Of a DNA stretch of 64,000 bases, positions 28,937 to 42,206 are shown piece by piece (the first letter of the stretch is position 1; each line of letters starts with the position of its first letter). Both the position numbers and the translations under genes were made by a program. This DNA is from an uncultured Bacteroides sp. (GTDB lineage: Bacteria; Bacteroidota; Bacteroidia; Bacteroidales; Bacteroidaceae): positions 3,687,258-3,751,257 of the forward strand of contig NZ_OY782578.1 of assembly GCF_963677945.1 (NCBI RefSeq), in the 5' to 3' direction. Below the pieces are notes generated by a model, which searched no databases, had not been told where the DNA came from, and saw only the letters and a program-made list of their open reading frames with translations.

Positions 28937-30196
28937 ATGGATTATAAATACTTATTTTTTGTATTTTACTTACTTTTTCTTTGTCCAATAACCTATGCAC
29001 AACCATTTCGTTTTATAGTGGCTAAAGATGGCAGCGGAACTCATAATTCAATTCAAAAAGCAATAAACGATTGTCCGGATAATGAGCGTAGCCTCATTTT
29101 TGTTAAGAATGGAACTTACGAAGAAAAAGTGTCTATTGGAACACGAACATCAAAATCACTGAAGCAAATTAGTCTGATAGGTGAAAGTGTGAATAATGTA
29201 ATAATAACTTCTCCAGATGCAATTGGGAATGGCGCAACCAACGTTTATGGTGCAACAACCTTTGCTATCTATGCTAATGACTTTTATGCAGAAAACATCA
29301 CTTTTCAGAATACAGCCGGAAACAAAGGACAGGCTTTAGCGTTAGATACAGAGGAAGACCGGCAAACTTTTAAGAACTGTCGCTTATTAGGATTTCAGGA
29401 TACTTATCGTTCAAGGAAAGGGCGTAGGTTCTACTTCAAAGATTGTTTTATTCAAGGAGCAACAGATTTTATTTATGGCGGCGGAACAGTCTTTTTCGAT
29501 GATTGTACAATTAATTGTGTTAAAGGCGGAAGTTACATTTCTGCTCCTGAAGATATTTCATATTATGAAAAAACAACATCAGGAAAGACTATTCGATATG
29601 GCTTTATTTTCAGGAATTGTGATATAACAGCAAAAGCAGATGTGGCTGAGAATTCTTACTATTTAGGTAGACCCTGGAATATGGAATGTGGTTCTATTTA
29701 TTTGAATTGCCGAATGGGAAAACATACTAAGCCTGAAGGTTGGTCTGCCTGGAAAAGCACGAATCATTTATCGGCTTGCTTTGCGGAATATAATAGTATG
29801 AATATGAATAGAACTCCAGTAGATATAACTAAAAGAACAAACTGGAGCTTTCAGTTAACGAAAGACGAAGTTGACACCTTTTTAGGTATGAAACAGGTTT
29901 ATTCAAAAATAAGTTCAGTTCCTTATAATCCGCAGGCTATGTGCGCTACTCCTTCTGCACCCGCCAAGCTTAGTAGAGATAGAAATACAATATCCTGGAA
30001 AACTGTTGATGGGGCTATTGGATATTTAATCTTGCGAAACGGACTATTCTTAGCCACAACGGCTAAAACTTATTATACCGACGAAACTGCTCAGATAAAT
30101 AAAAAGTATACATATTCGGTTAGATCAGTAAGCATTAACGGAAATCTGAGTACATCAACATCCATTACAAGTCCGATAAAACGTATTAAAAAATAA
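28937..30196 (+). CDS. Pectinesterase (CE8) with C-terminal Fn3-like domain
   Basis: A 419-residue secreted protein with a signal peptide ending ITYAQ. The right-handed beta-helix CE8 domain spans about 24-325. Catalytic residues are Asp155 (GFQDTY) and Asp177 (GATDFIYG), with the arginine of LGRPW and the oxyanion Gln in GQALAL. A fibronectin-type III-like module occupies about 335-415 (SAPAKLSRDRNTISWKTVDGAIGYLILRNG). It removes methyl esters from homogalacturonan so that pectate lyases can act, and the next gene is exactly that. Confidence 0.94.
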   Translation: MDYKYLFFVFYLLFLCPITYAQPFRFIVAKDGSGTHNSIQKAINDCPDNERSLIFVKNGTYEEKVSIGTRTSKSLKQISLIGESVNNVIITSPDAIGNGATNVYGATTFAIYANDFYAENITFQNTAGNKGQALALDTEEDRQTFKNCRLLGFQDTYRSRKGRRFYFKDCFIQGATDFIYGGGTVFFDDCTINCVKGGSYISAPEDISYYEKTTSGKTIRYGFIFRNCDITAKADVAENSYYLGRPWNMECGSIYLNCRMGKHTKPEGWSAWKSTNHLSACFAEYNSMNMNRTPVDITKRTNWSFQLTKDEVDTFLGMKQVYSKISSVPYNPQAMCATPSAPAKLSRDRNTISWKTVDGAIGYLILRNGLFLATTAKTYYTDETAQINKKYTYSVRSVSINGNLSTSTSITSPIKRIKK

Positions 30197-30215
30197 CATA
30201 TATAAAACAAATATC

Positions 30216-31718
30216 ATGAATTTATTGCACTCATTCTTTTGTGCTGGTCTTTTACTGGCTACAACAATTGCTCCGAACCAACTTTCGGCTCAAACTCTGG
30301 CTTTTCCGACGGCTGAGGGATTTGGTAAATTTGCAACTGGCGGACGCGGTGGCGAGGTTGTTGAAGTAACTAATCTTAATGATAGTGGAGAAGGTTCTTT
30401 CAGATGGGCTTTGTCACAGTATCCCAATACTCCTGTTACTATTGTGTTTCGCATTTCGGGTGTAATACAATTAAAATCTGATGTCCGTTGTAAACGAAAT
30501 GGCCTGACGATAGCCGGACAAACAGCTCCGGGAGACGGAATTTGTTTTCGTGGTGGCAAACTTAATTTTGGAGGATCAAAGAATTTAATAATCCGTCATA
30601 TTCGTTCTCGCATTGGCGGCATGACAGATTCGAAAGTCTTTATTCCGGGCGGGTCAATAGGCATAGAAAACTCTTCTGATTTTATTATTGACCATTGCAC
30701 ATTTGGTTGGTCGGCAGAAGAAAACATGACTATTTACGATAATCAAAGAACAACTGTTCAGTGGTGTTTAATTCATGAAGGTCTTTATACTTCAGGTCAT
30801 GGAAAAGGAGAACGTAGCTACAGCAGTCAATGGGGAGGCCAGTTCTCTACTTTCCATCATAATCTGTTAGCTAATAACAAGAACCGTACTCCTCGATTTA
30901 ATGGTGCCAGAGGACATAATGATATAAATATCCTTACCGACTACGTAAACAATGTAAACTATAACTGGGGAAGAATAAACTCTTGCTATGGTGGTGATAT
31001 AAATAACAATACATACAACCACATTAACATGGTAGGCAATTACTATAAACCCGGTCCGGCAAGACCTTCGGGCGAGAAATCCTATTTTGTTCAGGCATCG
31101 TATGGTAAGACTGATAAAGTATCTAACTGGTACTTATCCGGAAATGTAATGGAAGGAAATGCCGCTATGACAGCCAACAATAACACAGGAATAGATCTTA
31201 GTGTAAATCCTTCTGCCAGCAGAGATACAATGATTGTAAATGCTCCTTTTCATATTGATCCTGTTTATGCAGTAAAAACAGAAACAGCTAAAAATGCATA
31301 TAAAAGTGTGTTGGCTGGCGCAGGAGCATTTCCTCGTGACGCTGTTGATTTGCGAATTATTAATGAAGTGCGTAATGGAACTGCATCGGGTAAGGGAACT
31401 GTAAAAAGATACATTTCTTCTATATCCGGAAAGGACACAACCTGGGTATATAATCAATATTACGAATTAAAATTGGGTATTATTGATGAGCCTTCTGCCG
31501 TAGGAGGTTATCCTTCATACGTTACCAAAAATAAAATCTCAGACAAAGATCACGATGGTATGGATGATGCCTGGGAAAGAGCCAACGGATTTGATCCAAC
31601 TAATAGAGAAGACAGGAATATTAAAATGAAAAGTGGTTATACAGCATTGGAGGTTTACCTGAACAGCTTGGTTGGAGAAGTGATACCCATAAAGAAGATC
31701 GCACAAAAAAATAAATAA
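30216..31718 (+). CDS. Pectate lyase (PL1 type), secreted
   Basis: A 500-residue protein with a signal peptide ending LSAQ. A right-handed beta-helix opens with AEGFGKFATGGRGGEVVEVTNLND, typical of the PL1 proteins of Bacteroidetes. Other family features are TIAGQTAPGDGICFRGG, IIDHCTFGWSAEE and the candidate catalytic segment NRTPRFNGARGH. Near the C terminus DKDHDGMDDAWERANGFDP looks like a calcium-binding thrombospondin-type-3 loop. It cleaves demethylated homogalacturonan by beta-elimination and is 19 nt after the pectinesterase in the same operon. No SusC/D pair or uronate pathway lies beside it. Confidence 0.92.
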   Translation: MNLLHSFFCAGLLLATTIAPNQLSAQTLAFPTAEGFGKFATGGRGGEVVEVTNLNDSGEGSFRWALSQYPNTPVTIVFRISGVIQLKSDVRCKRNGLTIAGQTAPGDGICFRGGKLNFGGSKNLIIRHIRSRIGGMTDSKVFIPGGSIGIENSSDFIIDHCTFGWSAEENMTIYDNQRTTVQWCLIHEGLYTSGHGKGERSYSSQWGGQFSTFHHNLLANNKNRTPRFNGARGHNDINILTDYVNNVNYNWGRINSCYGGDINNNTYNHINMVGNYYKPGPARPSGEKSYFVQASYGKTDKVSNWYLSGNVMEGNAAMTANNNTGIDLSVNPSASRDTMIVNAPFHIDPVYAVKTETAKNAYKSVLAGAGAFPRDAVDLRIINEVRNGTASGKGTVKRYISSISGKDTTWVYNQYYELKLGIIDEPSAVGGYPSYVTKNKISDKDHDGMDDAWERANGFDPTNREDRNIKMKSGYTALEVYLNSLVGEVIPIKKIAQKNK

Positions 31719-33574: not shown

Positions 33575-34570
33575 TCAACTATGTTTTTCGTTATGTTCTT
33601 CGTCGCTAGCAGTTAGTTCTTCTAAAGTGAGGTTCAATGCTGCAATATATTGAGTCTTCCTATACTTGCAATCTGCCATCAGGCAATGCTCACAATGTTT
33701 TTCCAAACAAGGGTCAGAATGAATAGTAACCAATAAACGATCAGAATATTTAGCAGATAAAAGACTTCTTAATTCCTCGCAAGCATTATGTCCTTCCTCT
33801 ATATTATAAAACCAGGGCAAAGTTAAATCACAATCTACAAATAGATAGCTACCATATTTAATAACTTTCATATTATGAACATCTATCCATTCCGGCTTTC
33901 TTACAGCCGAGATTACTCCTAGCATTTTACGAAGAACTTCTCCATCAGCTTTATCCATTAAATTGGCTATTGTTTTACGAAGGATAAGAATGCCCGTTAC
34001 TACAATAATGGAACCAAAAATCATAGCTAGTGAACTATCAATCCATCCTAAACCAGTAAAATAAAGCAGGGAAAGACCTGTTACAAGACCAATAGTGGAA
34101 TATGTATCCGACTGCAAATGCTTTCCACCAGCCACCAATGCTATTGAATCATACTTTTTCCCCATTCTAATACTATACCAACCCATTACATAATTAATGA
34201 GTCCAGCAACTGCAACCACAGCAATACCAATATCCAGTTTGCCAATAGTGGCGGGCTCAAAAAGTCTTCTGACTCCTTCGTAGATAATCATACCACCTGC
34301 AATCATAATCAGCAAGCCTTCTATGGATGCTGAAATTAATTCAATCTTACCATGTCCAAAAGGATGCTCTTTATCTTTAGGTTTGGCTGCATATCTCAAA
34401 CTAAGGAAACTTATTAGTCCGGCTATCACATTCACAATGCTTTCCATTGCATCGGTTAATATTCCAACAGAATTAGTAAGAAAGAAAGCTATGAACTTTC
34501 CAATTAGAATGAGCAAGGACATAGAAACAATCCATCCTTGAACTTTTTGTTTGATTAAATCTTCCTTCAT
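33575..34570 (-). CDS. Cation diffusion facilitator (CDF) metal transporter
   Basis: A 331-residue protein with about six TM helices. The metal-site residues are Asp40 in TM2 (ILTDAMESIVN) and His151-x-x-x-Asp155 in TM5 (KHLQSDTYS). The usual second Asp of the TM2 DxxxD/HxxxD is Ser44, which may alter selectivity. HPFGHGKIE follows TM2 as in FieF/ZitB. The C-terminal domain is extended by a Cys/His cluster (CLEKHCEHCLMADC) absent from typical members and likely to bind metal. It exports divalent cations (Zn, Fe, Mn or Cd) by proton exchange. It diverges from the TPR kinase. Confidence 0.92.
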   Translation of the reverse strand: MKEDLIKQKVQGWIVSMSLLILIGKFIAFFLTNSVGILTDAMESIVNVIAGLISFLSLRYAAKPKDKEHPFGHGKIELISASIEGLLIMIAGGMIIYEGVRRLFEPATIGKLDIGIAVVAVAGLINYVMGWYSIRMGKKYDSIALVAGGKHLQSDTYSTIGLVTGLSLLYFTGLGWIDSSLAMIFGSIIVVTGILILRKTIANLMDKADGEVLRKMLGVISAVRKPEWIDVHNMKVIKYGSYLFVDCDLTLPWFYNIEEGHNACEELRSLLSAKYSDRLLVTIHSDPCLEKHCEHCLMADCKYRKTQYIAALNLTLEELTASDEEHNEKHS

Positions 34571-34745: not shown

Positions 34746-34826
34746 AGACCCGGGTCTAAATATATTTTACACCCGGATCTAAGTAAACTATACACCCGGG
34801 TGTACTGCATCTGTACATCCGGATGT
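34746..34826. repeat. Array of four 12-bp palindromes at exactly 23-bp spacing
   Basis: The units are AGACCCGGGTCT (34746), ACACCCGGATCT (34769), ACACCCGGGTGT (34792) and ACATCCGGATGT (34815). Centres are exactly 23 bp apart. Three are perfect palindromes although their sequences differ, so base changes are compensated between half-sites. The spacers are A/T-rich and unrelated. It lies in the 528-nt region between the divergent CDF and kinase genes. Confidence 0.8.
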
Positions 34827-35098: not shown

Positions 35099-37135
35099 AT
35101 GATAATTAAAAATAATATAAGTATACGCATTCTTATAAACATATTTGCTATTCTTATTTTTACAAGTATATATTCATGCAAAAAAACAGGTTCTGTCAGT
35201 TTTAGTAATAATCAATTAATAGATTCTTTTATACAACAAGCTCAGGATTCATTATACAACAACATAACATTATCGAAGGATTTACTGAAGAAAGCTATGA
35301 AAATAGCACCCGATAGCGTAATATACTATAAAGCATACAGCACTTATGCTTTAACTTATTCGGCTATAAATCAGTACGATTCTTCACTTTTTTTGTCTCA
35401 TCAAGTAATTAACTTCTGCAAGCGTCAGGAATTATCACCTCGTATATATGAGTTATTAGCCTCATCAAATAATAATATTGGAGTTTACTACGGGCAAATG
35501 AGTAAGCAAGACTCTGCACTTTCTTATTTTAAAAAAGCATTAAAACAGTACGAATTGGCAAATAACACAAACCGCGTTCCTGATATGTACATCAATCTGG
35601 CTGATATGTACTCAAGAAAAGGCGATTTTGCCATGAGTGCATATTATTACAGAAAGGCTCTATCAAAAAGTGATTCTTTAAAAATAACCGATAAAATGGG
35701 ATTCCCAATATATTTTGGTTTAGGGCAAATTTACATGGAAGTGCGCGATTTCGAACTGTCGGACACTTATTTCTGCCTTGCAGAAAAATTCTACAGTAAC
35801 AGAACATTGGCCGAGAAATTTACGTTTTGCAATAATCGGGGGAATTTTTATTATTATAAAGAAGAATACGACAAGGCACTACCCTGGTTTCAAAAAGCAA
35901 AAAAATTAGTATCGAAAGGCCATTATCAATTTTACGTCAGTTTATGCGAGCTGAATCTTGGAGATATTTATCTAAATCTTAATAAACTAGATTCTGTTCC
36001 ATATTGTCTGGACAAGAGTTATTCATACTTTTCTACAATAAAAAACAAAACAGCTTTATATTACATCTCAACCATAAGGGCAGGACTTGCTTTAAAACAA
36101 AAGAACACTCAACTTGCCCGAAAATTATTAGAAGATACCAAAGACTCGTCAGGCGTAGAAGCCAATATAATATCTATAAGAAACAAGTATCTGCAAAAGT
36201 ATTATGCCCAAACAGGAAATTTTAAACAAGCATATTACTACCAGTCAAAGAATTTGGCTATTGATGATTCTATTCGTAATGATAAAGCAGAAAAAAGAAT
36301 TTCCGAAATTGATCTGCGTTATAAGCAAGACACAACATTAGTAAACAATAAACTTGTTATTCAAAAGCAAGCTTCTCAGATGAAAAGCCTAAGATATATT
36401 TCTTTCATCTGGATATTAATCTGCTTGATAATTCTTACAACATTTGTCTATATTTTCTTCTGCCTGAAAAAAAAGAAAGATCTGCAACAGATAAAATACA
36501 TAGATAAGCTAATTAAGCTTAGGATGGAAAATATACGTAATCGGGTATCTCCTCATTTTATATTTAATATAATCAATAATGAAATTAGTTCATCAGGCGA
36601 AAACGAACGCAAAAATTTATATAATCTGGCAATATTAATGCGAAAAAATCTGGAAATATCAGAAAACACAAAAGTGCCGTTAGCAGAAGAGTTAGACTTT
36701 GTAAAACTATACATAGAATTAGAGAAAAGGAATTTGGGAGAAGATTTTCGTATTGAGTGGAATATTGATAACGAAATAGATTTAAAAGAAGTGTTTATTC
36801 TTCCAATGTCTATACAGATTCCTGTAGAAAATGCAATAAAGCATGCTTTGCGCCCTAAAGAAGGAGACAAAATACTTAGTATTAATTTGGAAAAGGAAAA
36901 AGAAGGTATTAATGTATTTATCAGAGACAATGGAGCCGGATATTTCCCTCAACAAGAGAGTCAGACAAAAGGTACAGGAACCGGACTGAGAATTTTATTT
37001 CAGACTATCCAGCTTTTGAATTCAAAAAATGCAAATAAGATATCTCTTAACATTCAGAATATTCGCAAAAACAATGAAGACATCTGCGGTGCAGAGGTTC
37101 ATATTTTTATTCCTGAAAAGTACAAATTTGAATGA
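35099..37135 (+). CDS. TPR-containing LytS-type sensor histidine kinase
   Basis: 678 residues. The N-terminal hydrophobic segment ends in a possible lipobox (SIYSC, about residue 27). Tetratricopeptide repeats span about 50-400, including SYFKKALKQYELANN and YYYRKALSKSDS, and are predicted periplasmic. One TM helix (about 430-455, YISFIWILICLIILTTFVYIFF) is followed by a coiled linker. The LytS-type kinase core carries the phospho-acceptor His486 in RVSPHFIFN and the ATPase motifs PVENAIKHAL and GTGTGLRILF. It overlaps the LytTR gene by 4 nt, so the two form a two-component system. The signal sensed through the TPRs is unknown. Confidence 0.92.
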   Translation: MIIKNNISIRILINIFAILIFTSIYSCKKTGSVSFSNNQLIDSFIQQAQDSLYNNITLSKDLLKKAMKIAPDSVIYYKAYSTYALTYSAINQYDSSLFLSHQVINFCKRQELSPRIYELLASSNNNIGVYYGQMSKQDSALSYFKKALKQYELANNTNRVPDMYINLADMYSRKGDFAMSAYYYRKALSKSDSLKITDKMGFPIYFGLGQIYMEVRDFELSDTYFCLAEKFYSNRTLAEKFTFCNNRGNFYYYKEEYDKALPWFQKAKKLVSKGHYQFYVSLCELNLGDIYLNLNKLDSVPYCLDKSYSYFSTIKNKTALYYISTIRAGLALKQKNTQLARKLLEDTKDSSGVEANIISIRNKYLQKYYAQTGNFKQAYYYQSKNLAIDDSIRNDKAEKRISEIDLRYKQDTTLVNNKLVIQKQASQMKSLRYISFIWILICLIILTTFVYIFFCLKKKKDLQQIKYIDKLIKLRMENIRNRVSPHFIFNIINNEISSSGENERKNLYNLAILMRKNLEISENTKVPLAEELDFVKLYIELEKRNLGEDFRIEWNIDNEIDLKEVFILPMSIQIPVENAIKHALRPKEGDKILSINLEKEKEGINVFIRDNGAGYFPQQESQTKGTGTGLRILFQTIQLLNSKNANKISLNIQNIRKNNEDICGAEVHIFIPEKYKFE

Positions 37136-37902
37136 TTATGAATAAACAATATAATGTTGTAATAATAGATGATGAAGAGATTGGAATATCCAATTTAAGT
37201 CGATCATTATCAAACTTTAGTGAAATATTAATAGCTGGAACTTCACAATCAGCACAAACAGGAAAAAACCTTATTTTAGAAAAGAGACCTGATCTTCTTT
37301 TTTTGGATGTTGAAATGCCGGAAACAAGTGGCTTGGAATTACTTCATGATATAAAGAATCTAATAAACTGGCAAATGCAGGTAGTCTTTTATACAGCATA
37401 CGAAAAGTATATGCTTGAAGCATTAAGAGAATCTGCATTCGACTACTTATTAAAGCCATACGAGGAGAGTGAGTTCCAAACTGTGATGAATCGCTTCTTT
37501 GATTCGGTTGACAAAGAAGATAAATTATCATCTTTCATTGATTCGCTATCTCAACTGATACCAGAAAACCGTACATTCTTAATTGCCACAATTACCGGGT
37601 ATATAACTCTTCGACAGGAACAAATCGGATATTTTGAGTATGTAAAAGAAAATAAGCATTGGTATATAACCTTGCAAAACGGCAAACATATTCAGCTAAA
37701 GAGGAACACTAAAGCAGAAGATATAATAAAACTATCAAAATCTTTTGCTCAGATAAATCAGCAACAAATTATAAACATCGACTATCTAACCATGATAGAA
37801 GGAAAGAAATGTGTTTTATATCCTCCTTATGAAGAAAAAACAGATCTTATAATATCAAGGTCATTCTTAAAATCAGTACAAGATAAGTTTAACTTAATCT
37901 AA
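37132..37902 (+). CDS. LytTR-family response regulator
   Basis: 256 residues. The receiver domain (about 8-125) has the acidic pair DDEE, the phospho-acceptor Asp59 (LLFLDVEMP) and the switch Lys in YLLKPYEE. A LytTR DNA-binding domain follows (about 150-250, IGYFEYVKENKHWYITLQNGKHIQLKRN...FAQINQQQIINIDYL). ATGA overlap with the kinase shows translational coupling; the third-codon Met is an alternative start. Its binding sites may include the divergent upstream region. Confidence 0.93.
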   Translation: MIMNKQYNVVIIDDEEIGISNLSRSLSNFSEILIAGTSQSAQTGKNLILEKRPDLLFLDVEMPETSGLELLHDIKNLINWQMQVVFYTAYEKYMLEALRESAFDYLLKPYEESEFQTVMNRFFDSVDKEDKLSSFIDSLSQLIPENRTFLIATITGYITLRQEQIGYFEYVKENKHWYITLQNGKHIQLKRNTKAEDIIKLSKSFAQINQQQIINIDYLTMIEGKKCVLYPPYEEKTDLIISRSFLKSVQDKFNLI

Positions 37903-38251: not shown

Positions 38252-39628
38252 TTAGTTTAAGTTCGCTATTTCTTCTGCAATCCGGGTTGCCTGCTTAATA
38301 CGATCAGCCATACCAATACCATCCTTAATACCTCCGGCAAGGAACATACCTGAATATTGTTTTTCCAAACCAGCAATACTTGCCAATCTTTCTTCTGTAT
38401 CAGCTTCGTATTGAGGAATAGCCCGCTCGTGTCTGAAGATTTTTATCTTATCGGGTGTATAATTAGCCGGAAATCCTAACATTTTAGACAGTGATTCTTT
38501 AACCAGACTCGCTAATTGCTCATCTGTATAAGAAAGATATTCGGGATGTTTGCTTCCTCCAATAAAAAAAGAAAGATTACCTCCACCTTCCGGGCAACGA
38601 TCAGAGAAACATGAAGAAGGAAACAAAATTCCAAGCATTTTCTGCTTTTCACGAGATGGGACCAAACCACCAAAAGCATTTGGTACATGCCCATCTGCTT
38701 TGACCACTCCTACCCCAACCTGAATAACCGGAGCATAATGAAGAGAACTAATTGGTTTCATATCCTTATCTCCAATAAAAGGTAATATAGAAGGTAAATC
38801 ATAAGCAGCAGCAGTAGAAACTACATAACGAGAGTGAATTCTTTCTTCACTAGCAGACAAAACAGTTTCCCATCCATCAGTAACCGGTTGAACTGAAATA
38901 CCTTCCTGAGACAAGTATATATTCTCTGCCTTAATTTCTTTCGCAAGAGCAGTAGCCAATGATTCGAATCCTCCCGGTACAGAGAAAACCTCTTTGGTTG
39001 GTAATTTATCCCGATCCGATTTAGGTTCGCCTGCTTTTTTAATTGAACCCCAAATAAAGCTACCGTACTTTTGTTCCAGATTATAAAGTTTAGGCAGCGC
39101 AAATCGGGTAACAAGTTTACTTGGATCTCCTGCATAAATCCCTGAAATAAATGGATCGACAGCATAGTCAAGGAATGACTGTCCCAATCGTCTGCGAGTG
39201 AGTTCTCCAATACTTTCGAAAGGATTGTCACCCTTCTTGCGGAGAGGTTCAAAGAGAATCCGGATTTTATCGTTCCAAGTAAACAGAGGTGTAGATATTG
39301 CTGTTGCCAGACTTGAAGGAAGCGGATGAAAAGCTCCATTCTTCCAAATAAGTCGCACTTTCGCTTCTTTACGAGCATTTTCAATAGAGCAACTACCTTG
39401 TAACATCTGGAACAGTTCCACAACTTCAGGATTAGAAACAACACCTGTGTTTGGGCCCGATTCAAAAACAAATCCATCTTCACGAATAGATTTCATCTGC
39501 CCGCCTACTCTATCGCTCTTCTCCAGAAGAAGTACTTTCAATCCTTTTCTAGTCAATAAAAAAGCAGTGACAAGTCCTGTAACTCCGGCACCAATAACTA
39601 CAACATCAACATCTTTGTTCTTATCCAT
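38252..39628 (-). CDS. hemG: Protoporphyrinogen oxidase (HemG/HemY type, FAD)
   Basis: A 458-residue protein. The N-terminal dinucleotide fold VVVIGAGVTGLVTAFLLTRKGLKVLLLEKSDRVGGQ binds FAD. SGPNTG, ALPKLYNLEQKYGSFIWG, SVPGGFESLATAL and GMFLAGGIKDGIGMADRI match protoporphyrinogen oxidases of the amine-oxidase superfamily. It converts protoporphyrinogen IX to protoporphyrin IX. This class usually uses O2; in anaerobes other acceptors are possible. It follows hemN after 15 nt. Some schemes call this type hemY; hemG is used for it in Bacteroides annotation. Confidence 0.92.
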   Translation of the reverse strand: MDKNKDVDVVVIGAGVTGLVTAFLLTRKGLKVLLLEKSDRVGGQMKSIREDGFVFESGPNTGVVSNPEVVELFQMLQGSCSIENARKEAKVRLIWKNGAFHPLPSSLATAISTPLFTWNDKIRILFEPLRKKGDNPFESIGELTRRRLGQSFLDYAVDPFISGIYAGDPSKLVTRFALPKLYNLEQKYGSFIWGSIKKAGEPKSDRDKLPTKEVFSVPGGFESLATALAKEIKAENIYLSQEGISVQPVTDGWETVLSASEERIHSRYVVSTAAAYDLPSILPFIGDKDMKPISSLHYAPVIQVGVGVVKADGHVPNAFGGLVPSREKQKMLGILFPSSCFSDRCPEGGGNLSFFIGGSKHPEYLSYTDEQLASLVKESLSKMLGFPANYTPDKIKIFRHERAIPQYEADTEERLASIAGLEKQYSGMFLAGGIKDGIGMADRIKQATRIAEEIANLN

Positions 39629-39643
39629 TAAGTAACCTATATT

Positions 39644-41011
39644 TTAAACCGGTTTCGAATACATTTTTGTGTTATCTTTCATCAGCGGGTCAAACGCTGC
39701 AGCAACATTCCTCACAAATATAGCTCCTTCCTGCGTTATTTTTATTTCTTCGGGAGAATAAGTTATAATTCCATCTTTTTCGAAATCAGCCAATCTATCT
39801 TCATCGTACGAGATTGCATTTTTAATATCACTTTCGCCTACACCAATATGAGCAGAAAGCTCTTTCCAGCTAAGTCTGTCGTTGCACATTAGTGTTGTGA
39901 TTACTTCTTTTGCAATCTGTTCTTCCCTGTTAAGGGTATATCCTTTTATAATGGCAAACTCGCCATCGTTCATTTTTTGAATATATTCAGGAATACTCTT
40001 GGTATTCTGACTATAAGCCATTGAAAGCTGACTGATACCGGTTACTCCGAAAGCATATACCTGACCGGTAGTTTTCCGTGTACAATATCCCTGAAAGTTA
40101 CGATGCAATTGTCCCGACTGAAGAGCAATACTTAAATCATCATCCGGCAAAACAAAATGGTCGAGACCGATAGGTTGATAACCTTTCGCTGAAAGAATTC
40201 GTTTGGCAGCATCATACATAGCACTCTTTTCCTGAGGCGAAGGCAAACCATTCTTCTCTAATATCATCATTGCTTTATTCACCCAAGGCACATGCGCATA
40301 AGAGAATGTAACCAATCTGTCCGGCTTTAGTGCAGCAGCCTTTTGAAGAGTTTCTTCAAAGCTTTGAACAGTTTGATAAGGCAATCCGTAAATAAAGTCC
40401 ATGTTTATGGAAACATTAAATGCTCTCAACAATCCAAATATGGTTTCCATTTGCAGTAACGATGGTCTTCTGTTTACACCTTTCAGAACCTTCGAATTAA
40501 AATCCTGAACACCAATGCTGCATCGGTTAAATCCGGCATTGATTAACTGCATCCAGTTATTCTCATCCAGGTAACCGGGATGGCATTCTATTGCAATCTC
40601 TGGCGAATCGGTACATTCAAACTGAGAGAGAAGTAATTCATTAATTTCCTGAATATAATGAAGTGGAATGCTACTTGGACTTCCACCACCATAGTGTATC
40701 TGAGATATTTTCCGATTCTTGTTTATCAACGGAATCACTTTCCTGATCTCTTTCTTTATCGCATCCACATAAGCTTCAATGATTTCAGCTTTTGCCATGG
40801 GATACGAGTTGCATCCGCAGTAATGACAAAGATGACGGCAAAAAGGTATATGAATATAGAAAGAAAGATTCTGAGGTGTGGTCTCATTAGAAGCTATCAC
40901 CGCTTTTTCATAATCCTCATTGGTAAATTTATCATGGAAATAATTTGCCGGCGGATAACTTGTATACCGGGGCGTAGGTACATTATATTTTGCTATTAAA
41001 TCTTCATTCAT
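39644..41011 (-). CDS. hemN: Oxygen-independent coproporphyrinogen III dehydrogenase (HemN)
   Basis: 455 residues from the ATG at 41011, chosen because it gives the classic ATGAATGA overlap with the upstream permease stop; a start at 41038 would add nine residues. The radical-SAM cluster CxxxCxxCxC is complete (Cys58, Cys62, Cys65, Cys67 in FCRHLCHYCGCN), which distinguishes true HemN from HemW. YGGGSPS and SIGVQDFNSKVLKGVNR follow, and the C-terminal winged-helix-like part has ITQEG. It decarboxylates coproporphyrinogen III to protoporphyrinogen IX, the substrate of the next enzyme. Confidence 0.94.
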   Translation of the reverse strand: MNEDLIAKYNVPTPRYTSYPPANYFHDKFTNEDYEKAVIASNETTPQNLSFYIHIPFCRHLCHYCGCNSYPMAKAEIIEAYVDAIKKEIRKVIPLINKNRKISQIHYGGGSPSSIPLHYIQEINELLLSQFECTDSPEIAIECHPGYLDENNWMQLINAGFNRCSIGVQDFNSKVLKGVNRRPSLLQMETIFGLLRAFNVSINMDFIYGLPYQTVQSFEETLQKAAALKPDRLVTFSYAHVPWVNKAMMILEKNGLPSPQEKSAMYDAAKRILSAKGYQPIGLDHFVLPDDDLSIALQSGQLHRNFQGYCTRKTTGQVYAFGVTGISQLSMAYSQNTKSIPEYIQKMNDGEFAIIKGYTLNREEQIAKEVITTLMCNDRLSWKELSAHIGVGESDIKNAISYDEDRLADFEKDGIITYSPEEIKITQEGAIFVRNVAAAFDPLMKDNTKMYSKPV

Positions 41012-42206
41012 GACGAACAGGCTTTTTAAAGAAAACAAGTATATAAACTAGCGATATTAAGGCAAGTCCGGCTTCTACCAGAAATAGTCCGCTGTAACCC
41101 AAAAGATCAGCAACCTTACCGCTGCACACAGCTATAAGCATACTGCTTAAGTGTGCTATCACCGTTTGCAAAGTGAAATCCGTTCCTTCCCTACCGTCTC
41201 TCAGAAAATCCATGGCTACAGTATTAACCAGCACTGCAGATAGTCCGTAACTTGCCCACAAACAGAATATTGCTACATATAGAGCAATAGTTCCGGGAGT
41301 GGAGAGAGACATAAAATAGAAAAAGAGTGTAGTAACCAATACTGCACAGGCAAAAATGATACGAGAGTAAAATCTTCCGATTGAACGGATAACATATCCA
41401 CCTATATACGAGAAGAGGCAGCCACATAACGATCCAAAGATACCAAACATAAATCCAATTTCTCCGGTATTATATCCTAAATCTACCATAAAAGGCTTAA
41501 CCATTGCTAAAATTCCAATAATACCGGAATAACAAAGAATCAGGAAAATTAATTGTTTAGCCACCCCTTTCTGATGAAAGAACAGATAAAGATCTTTCAT
41601 TGATATTGGCGTTTTGCCTTGTTTGGGAGTGAATTTTTTGTCTTTGTATATAAAAAGAGGTATTAATGCCAGCACAACAAACAAAGAAACACTAATCAGT
41701 AAAGCATTCCATCCTATCAGTTTATAATGCAATAGCAATAAGCCACCGCCAACCAGTGAACCGGTAAAACTACCCATACTTTGCATACTATTTCCCAAAC
41801 TTTTCTCTCTGTGGTTAAACGAAAGAGCTGTAAGCGCATCGGTAGCAATATCTTGTGTGGCAGAAGCTATAAACGACAGTATAATAAGGATAAAGATAGT
41901 AGTAAAGTTTGTTTCCAGATCTAAAAAGGCAACCATAAAGATTAATACGGCGTAAACCATTTCAGATGAAAAGATCCATCTTTTATAAGAGCCTAGATCG
42001 GAAGTGCGTTTATCTACAAAAGGTGCCCAAAATACTTTCAATATCCATGGAAGTTTAATTAATTGAAGCAAACCAATAGTACTTAACGAAAAATTTCCCT
42101 GTCGCATAAGTACAGGGAGTAAAGTACTAAACAAGCTCATCGGCACGGACTGAGCTATGTATAATGAGAAGAATGTAAGTAGTTTATTTGTTCGTTTTGA
42201 GTTCAT
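41004..42206 (-). CDS. MFS permease, RhtX/FptX (AmpG-like) siderophore-type importer
   Basis: 400 residues from the ATG at 42206; an ATG at 42245 would overlap the receptor gene. About twelve TM helices. LIKLPWILKVFWAPFVDK near the N terminus and SFIASATQDIATDALT are typical of the AmpG/RhtX/FptX group, single-protein inner-membrane importers of siderophores or muropeptides. Between a TonB receptor and haem enzymes, import of a porphyrin or iron chelate is the natural inference. It is translationally coupled to hemN. Confidence 0.9.
   Translation of the reverse strand: MNSKRTNKLLTFFSLYIAQSVPMSLFSTLLPVLMRQGNFSLSTIGLLQLIKLPWILKVFWAPFVDKRTSDLGSYKRWIFSSEMVYAVLIFMVAFLDLETNFTTIFILIILSFIASATQDIATDALTALSFNHREKSLGNSMQSMGSFTGSLVGGGLLLLHYKLIGWNALLISVSLFVVLALIPLFIYKDKKFTPKQGKTPISMKDLYLFFHQKGVAKQLIFLILCYSGIIGILAMVKPFMVDLGYNTGEIGFMFGIFGSLCGCLFSYIGGYVIRSIGRFYSRIIFACAVLVTTLFFYFMSLSTPGTIALYVAIFCLWASYGLSAVLVNTVAMDFLRDGREGTDFTLQTVIAHLSSMLIAVCSGKVADLLGYSGLFLVEAGLALISLVYILVFFKKPVRHE

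Follow-up and report, generated by a model that had tools for sequence, protein, structure and literature searches.

A four-unit palindrome array in Bacteroides as a probable site of a cognate, self-regulating HU-HIG protein

Four palindromes at exact 23-bp steps between a metal-export gene and a two-component system raise the question of what such an array is for, and whether its role lies with these neighbours. The array occupies positions 34746-34826 of the window, by which we mean the whole 64-kb stretch of DNA that was analysed, and consists of the units AGACCCGGGTCT (34746-34757, core AYCCGGRT at 34748), ACACCCGGATCT (34769-34780, core at 34771), ACACCCGGGTGT (34792-34803, core at 34794) and ACATCCGGATGT (34815-34826, core at 34817), none of them assigned to a strand. 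The step is exactly 23 bp throughout, which confirms what a preliminary description of this DNA had claimed; the 12-bp palindrome is perfect in every unit except unit 2, where it is imperfect. The genomic setting is also as described there. On one side lies a CDF cation-efflux gene (33575-34570, minus strand; TIGR01297), with 178 bp between its start and the first core, and on the opposite flank the genes for a TPR sensor histidine kinase (35099-37135) and a LytTR-type response regulator (37132-37902) together span 35099-37902 on the plus strand. When the window was scanned for four palindromic units without presupposing a core, over all periods between 18 and 30, the array scored 36.5; three whole-window shuffles reached at most 27.5, and no second place in the window scored 29 or more.

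We then focused on relatives that carry the CDF gene. Four exact cores stand beside it in genomes G003 and G087, although in G087 the gene across the array differs, and the CDF gap of G073 holds two cores, 46 bp apart. In G049, G052 and G095 the CDF gene is present and no exact core was found; in G049 the kinase gene is present as well, again with no exact core between the two. Local regulation of metal export or of the two-component system was therefore rejected as the general role, because the other flank differs in G087, because G049 is without an exact core, and because the 15 other arrays of the source genome flank other kinds of genes. The CDF gene, like the kinase and response-regulator genes, is best taken as context, and a functional link between the CDF gene and the array is probably absent.

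Exact 23-bp steps recur well beyond this locus. The source genome (4.57 Mb) holds 16 arrays of AYCCGGRT at exact 23-bp steps, 13 of them with four units, and the two-unit pattern at 23 bp gave 36 exact matches, or 51 with up to two mismatches, the reversed-pattern control giving 0 in both cases. Among 60 genomes of the genus, the source genome included, the exact pair is present in 25, a count that misses variant arrays, and the control is at 0 in all 60; the largest number, 64 exact pairs, belongs to G044. A scan of named genomes returned at least 120 stretches, chiefly from Bacteroides and Parabacteroides, in a species mix that is arbitrary. Four is the number of units in 94 of 137 arrays, and the distances between exact units are 23 bp (347 cases), 46 bp (215), 69 bp (81) and 92 bp (10), any other distance occurring in at most three cases. 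Core and step are constant, and both the arms adjacent to the core, which differ between species and arrays, and the spacers vary. That selection maintains dyad symmetry with a constant step, as had been suggested, is supported by the recurrence of the exact steps. A scan of viral contigs returned one stretch, a three-unit CCCGGG array on IMGVR_UViG_3300009856_000164 (1447-1500; L156), which may belong to a prophage or to host flanking DNA. Removal of six loci from outside the Bacteroidota leaves the set of 131 arrays used below; two of the six, from a Kiritimatiellae MAG (L037 and L074), resemble palindrome arrays, and the other four (L053, L061, L092 and L155) are Actinomycetota matches, L053 and L061 having near-identical spacers and the appearance of ordinary minisatellites.

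The idea that both halves of a unit had changed together cannot be generalized. Coordination between halves was measured against shuffling in 59 units of the source genome and in 367 units from 19 other species groups. Outside the 12-mer, at ±7 and ±8, both sets show coordinated halves (z 2.8-7.2), and at ±5 the source genome alone does (z 3.5; other groups 0.1); at ±6 coordination is found in neither set, and at ±3 it is not above shuffling (z 0.7 in the source genome and -3.2 in the others). As a general property the joint change of halves fails at ±3, and “compensating changes” is the wrong general description. Since the halves of the 12-mer are without coordination at ±3, the half-sites seem, as far as sequence comparison goes, to be read largely independently, as by a protein dimer. 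Arms were compared within species, over 72 arrays from 14 species groups, an earlier version of the comparison having been dominated by a species effect. The pairs L1-R2 (z 5.0), L1-L4 (3.7), L3-R4 (3.6), L1-R1 (3.4) and L1-R4 (2.8) are more alike than shuffled pairs, pairing of arms across the spacer is avoided (R2-L3, z -3.3), and the outermost arms are complementary in some arrays, over about 14 bp in L078. We also considered whether arms reshuffled among the units might trace past DNA inversions or moves of segments, and dropped this reading because the array of G087, which can be read as a consistent reordering, shows a pattern expected by chance in one case out of four.

The position of the arrays relative to genes was evaluated from ORF-based gene calls. 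Once 12 arrays overlapping an ORF of at least 90 aa and 20 at locus edges had been set aside, 99 of the 131 arrays were classed as lying in tandem (54), convergent (27) or divergent (18) gaps, as compared with 110, 30 and 48 among 188 other gaps of at least 100 bp. Convergent gaps are over-represented (27/99 versus 30/188, p 0.03), and divergent gaps are not significantly rarer among the arrays (p 0.19); in tandem gaps the array stands closer to the end of the upstream gene in 38 of 54 cases and to a start in 16 (p 0.004), a modest 3'-end bias. A preference for divergent promoters, which the preliminary description had raised as a point to check, is not supported, convergent gaps and gene ends being favoured. 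Neither are the arrays strewn over random or coding positions with their symmetry lost: all 16 arrays of the source genome lie between predicted genes (ORF calls), and the ORFs overlapped by the 12 arrays mentioned above are shorter than 125 aa in seven cases. Neighbours in the source genome are diverse, including glycosidases, TonB receptors, tilS, mraZ, a thioredoxin and HU-HIG genes, among others. Two ORFs at 28937-31718 of the window resemble, by eye, a pectin methylesterase and a pectate lyase, and polysaccharide-degradation genes also flank some other arrays of the same genome.

The clustering of 442 flanking proteins pointed to one neighbour in particular. The largest family is HU-HIG (PF18291), found at 12 of the 131 arrays, and in all 12 cases the array lies upstream of the start, at 16-122 bp; the second-largest cluster comprises large proteins at 10 loci. 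The 12 loci come from the source genome, other Bacteroides and Parabacteroides, and protein identities suggest that they stand for about five or six independent lineages rather than twelve. In the source genome there are two such CCCGGG-linked genes, at about 59 kb and about 318 kb from the window array, and both proteins match PF18291 (91 and 96 bits, cut-off 26.2). TIGR01201 (HU_rel) is passed by two of three proteins tested, L048 falling just below (63.9 versus 68.6 bits). An AlphaFold2 model of a protein of this group, built as one monomer, has the HU fold (pLDDT 92.2), and Foldseek and HMM matches of the group are to HU, IHF and PDB 4fmr (Bacteroides vulgatus). The candidate cognate proteins are members of the HU-HIG branch of the HU/IHF superfamily (PF18291; TIGR01201; PDB 4fmr), a branch reportedly named by Burroughs and colleagues in 2017. 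We know of no DNA site for HU-HIG proteins, and in the open-licence literature no paper linking them to repeats was found; one paper listed there (PMC3969353) concerns the P. gingivalis HU protein PG0121 and an inverted repeat.

The core of the array follows the protein. A tree was made of 93 HU-HIG proteins, and a single clade of 34 (support 0.986) takes in every one of the 28 that are CCCGGG-linked (12 found through their arrays, and 16 found by protein profile and then labelled from the upstream DNA); none of the 59 proteins outside it carries the label. The tree shows 6 label changes, and 1000 shuffles averaged 24.4 and never gave fewer than 19. Left out of the tree were own_L207 and own_L208, already represented as L033 and L030, and the incomplete loci L371 and L376. 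Six members of the clade are unlabelled: at four of them some units of the array read CCCC or GGGG, L209 of the source genome has the core GATRTAYATC, still at a 23-bp step, and at L369 no array was seen. Upstream of clade members, in a scan that set aside two incomplete loci of 30, a CCCGGG-type array above all shuffles was found in 17 of the 21 scanned. Moreover, a clade profile made from the 12 array-flanking proteins separates members (at least 125 bits) from other HU-HIG proteins (at most 93 bits), which allowed presence and absence to be compared in 25 genomes of the genus, chosen mainly as the more complete ones; 16 were drawn from the 24 genomes besides the source genome that bear arrays, and 9 from the 35 that are array-free. 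The clade is present in 15 of the 16 genomes with arrays and in 1 of the 9 without exact arrays (Fisher p 7e-5). Of the two exceptions, G001 has one exact pair and no clade member, and in G056, where an exact CCCGGG pair is missing, the clade has three members and an upstream array has CCCGGG in its outer units and altered inner units. G044, with its 64 exact pairs, has seven clade members, one of them with an internal stop, so that more putative binders go with more sites. A case of apparent loss also counts in favour of the pairing of array and protein: at one locus of B. xylanisolvens (L081), G021 and G012 have four units, and G009, which has no protein of the clade, has one decayed unit in a gap shorter by 69 bp, i.e., 3 x 23. 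The array of G009 may have decayed once the protein was lost, or a single unit may have been the precursor.

If core and protein belong together, other HU-HIG paralogs should have arrays of other cores upstream, and in the source genome this prediction held. The genome has 21 HU-HIG matches, of which the 16 above 60 bits were analysed, five weak ones (L213-L217) being left aside. Plain arrays stand upstream of L205 (four units of TGTACA, 22 bp), L206 (four of TGCGCA, 22 bp), L209 (four of GATRTAYATC, 23 bp), L210 (GGTCGTGACC type, 22 bp) and L207 and L208 (CCCGGG, 23 bp). Upstream of L211, three units of CATGTACATG were recognized by eye, the best match of the scan there being marginal with a period of 18; in its close paralog L212, inspection covered the gene-adjacent stretch, which holds a last unit identical to that of L211. 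L198 has a marginal, A/T-rich match, L201 a downstream match only, and at L197, L199, L200 and L202-L204 the upstream and downstream scan found no array. These other cores are dispersed as well. In the source genome, TGCGCA gave 10 matches at 4 loci (control 0), the GATATACATC family (GATRTAYATC) 31 matches, with 13 loci among the matches listed (control 0), and TTGTACA 173 and 161 matches on the two strands (control 18 and 17), its exact pair being found at no fewer than 49 loci among the matches listed. A set of 36 loci of these three cores in the source genome comprises 16 tandem, 9 convergent and 8 divergent ones, 2 overlapping an ORF and 1 at an edge; 11 of the 16 tandem ones are closer to a gene end, and divergent gaps account for 5 of 13 in the GATRTAYATC family.

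To evaluate how general this is in the order, 40 genomes, one per genus and including the source genome, were searched. The source genome has 21 HU-HIG matches, G121 has 17, G128 21, G127 8 and G138 7; the remaining genomes have 1 to 6, mostly weak, which may be ordinary HU. The upstream scan covered 55 genes, namely 16 of the source genome and 39 from five genomes, each of another family than the source genome; interrupted, partial and sub-60-bit genes of the other genomes were set aside, and L332, whose upstream region holds N, was counted as a miss. A four-unit array above all 60 shuffles was found upstream of 20 of 55 genes and downstream of 7 of 54, with a period of 21-23 in 26 of these 27. 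By set, the upstream passes are 8 of 16 in the source genome (L198 and L211 being marginal) and 12 of 39 elsewhere. Among 113 control genes, all taken from the array loci of the source genome, 2 pass, neither with a period of 21-23 (Fisher p 1.7e-9). The cores differ gene by gene, and include TGTCAGCTGACA, GAATAGCTATTC, TGATGCGCATCA, CCACTCCAGTGG, AACTACGTAGTT and TTTAGTACTAAA, among others.

Altogether, we consider it probable, on these comparisons of sequence, that the window array is one of 16 dispersed sites of a cognate, self-regulating HU-HIG protein, the dispersed copies being addresses of the nucleoid type. From the linkage we infer binding, autoregulation, dimers lying side by side and an architectural role, as follows. 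Each palindrome would be bound by one HU-HIG dimer, with the AYCC and GGRT half-sites read largely independently, and the 23-bp step would seat four dimers side by side. The copy just upstream of the HU-HIG start codon would serve autoregulation, and at the dispersed copies, mostly near the 3' ends of genes, the protein may constrain or bridge DNA. Paralogs of the same genome would act alike with private cores (TGTACA, TGCGCA, GATRTAYATC and others) at steps of 22-23 bp. Titles of PDB entries record co-crystals of HU with DNAs of 19-20 bp, so that packing at 21-23 bp appears reasonable. The earlier suggestion of a nucleoid-type dimeric protein binding as an oligomer has thereby become the leading idea, since the linked family has the HU/IHF fold and the 23-bp steps recur. 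Against this proposal, 8 of the 16 HU-HIG genes of the source genome fail the upstream scan, and seven genes in the 55-gene scan have an array downstream instead. In addition, the shape of DNA usually matters more to HU and IHF than its sequence, and canonical HU is not known to be sequence-specific in the manner of the CCCGGG arrays, so that specific reading of CCCGGG by an HU fold would be unusual. A wider version of the proposal, whose chances we put at about even, is that HU, the textbook case of a non-specific histone-like protein, has been expanded in Bacteroidales into chromosome-address proteins that are sequence-specific and orthogonal to one another. Every paralog would own a private, self-regulated family of four-site arrays scattered along the chromosome; core and step would evolve together with the protein, and arrays whose protein is lost would decay.

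Among the alternatives, the one that survives best is that the arrays are selfish repeats which, like a MITE, have copied themselves to dispersed places in the manner of BrickBuilt or REP, with the HU-HIG neighbour incidental or a helper; we regard it as unlikely. It is favoured by the fact that the arrays are dispersed, intergenic, and absent or reduced at orthologous sites of relatives. At the L081 locus described above, no clean target duplication was seen among relatives of G021, the sequences being too diverged to fix the ends. It also draws on BrickBuilt of Porphyromonas gingivalis, which is the nearest published relative of the arrays that we found, set beside them here by description only. 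In the portions of Klein et al. (2015; PMC4596501) available to us, BrickBuilt is a MITE and a 23-nt minisatellite, always intergenic, in 19 dispersed copies, which have 1 to 22.8 repeats, a leader and a tail, inverted ends, a repeat number that varies between strains and reported target duplications of 4 bp. The shortest copy, BrickBuilt_14 (84 nt, between a minus-strand and a plus-strand gene; Table 1 of that paper), lies upstream of PGN_0872, a DNA-binding protein with PF00216, the HU domain; the same portions count DNA/RNA-binding proteins among the neighbours without singling out PGN_0872 and propose no cognate protein, and the word “palindrome” is absent from the paper's text. The likeness consists in tandem 23-nt units that are intergenic, dispersed and gained or lost between strains, with one copy upstream of an HU-type gene, as far as that source goes; the arrays have just such tandem, intergenic, dispersed 23-nt units (22 nt in two sister families), but BrickBuilt differs in its repeat number of 1 to 22.8, and its leader and tail and reported target duplications may set it apart as well. 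Several observations speak against a selfish origin: some arrays are kept between species with point changes only (L020 and L022 of the source genome versus L125 and L113 of B. luti, by eye), spacers vary between arrays despite the constant core and step, and the core follows the protein clade, the array being upstream of the start in 12 of 12 HU-HIG cases. At 38252-41038 of the window, 3-6 kb from the array, lie ORFs named by eye as protoporphyrinogen-oxidase-like and coproporphyrinogen-oxidase-like; their resemblance to the setting of BrickBuilt_2, which has hemG beside it in P. gingivalis, is probably a coincidence.

It is quite improbable, in our judgement, that the arrays are ordinary operators of another transcription factor that regulates adjacent genes, HU-HIG genes among them. 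The palindromic units, their position upstream of HU-HIG and some other genes, and the 4 of 16 arrays of the source genome in divergent gaps would suit an operator, but the neighbours are diverse, and the arrays favour convergent gaps and the ends of genes; moreover, this explanation needs a separate factor for each HU-HIG paralog, tracking the HU-HIG tree. As for an RNA or single-strand hairpin array (a terminator or REP-like structured 3' element), which the preliminary description had also suggested, the 3'-end bias, the complementary outermost arms of some arrays, the likeness of arm pairs such as L1-R2, L3-R4, L1-R1 and L1-R4 and the covariation at ±7 and ±8 count in its favour, but it is highly improbable because covariation is missing at ±3, pairing across the spacer is avoided and an Rfam covariance-model search of the arrays matched no family (one chance-level miRNA match, E 0.58), and arrays occur in divergent gaps too.

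Compared with other known systems, the putative HU-HIG sites resemble those of Noc (NBS), MatP (matS), SlmA and ParB (parS), in which one protein has many dispersed palindromic sites and serves nucleoid organization rather than local regulation; the Noc site is also centred on CCCGGG. Those proteins, however, have other folds, mostly single sites and one system of a kind per genome, whereas here several paralogous systems would share one genome and each site is a four-unit block. The REP and BIME elements of enterobacteria likewise consist of palindromes scattered between genes, more often near gene ends, and are bound by nucleoid or topology proteins, but they are not known to have a fixed four-unit block at 22-23 bp or a cognate, paralog-specific protein. 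The arrays do not look like CRISPR, their palindromes being degenerate and 12-14 bp long with spacers of about 9-11 bp, and no cas family was found among 30 flanking proteins scanned.

If the proposal is true, bacteria would have a novel means of marking the chromosome, each type of address being paired with its own histone-like variant, and one genome would run several parallel nucleoid-marking codes. It would also imply sequence-specific recognition within the HU fold, with many natural protein-site pairs from which a specificity code could be worked out. The proposal would give a partner with a function to a protein family that has many copies in a dominant gut phylum, and to many unexplained intergenic repeats; it also suggests a cause for BrickBuilt that can be tested. 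Because a binder is predicted for every array family, nucleoid organization in Bacteroidota becomes directly testable.

The internal layout of the blocks shows some further regularities. In the TGTACA family, exactly four units were found at 15 of the 19 loci examined, and the block seems to have defined ends; most of the TGTACA arrays shown for the source genome (L228-L257) have CT..AG outer arms and TTY..RAA inner arms. A replication-direction bias of these arrays was considered and dropped, as the reverse-strand match expected for at least one array of the early region (L241) was absent from the listing. In the CCCGGG type, upstream of L359, L362, L363, L367, L368 and L382, the central CCGG is replaced in some units by CCCC, GGGG, CGGG or CCAG, and these variant units stand between or beside normal ones, as if the units of a block had different roles or their halves could be flipped.
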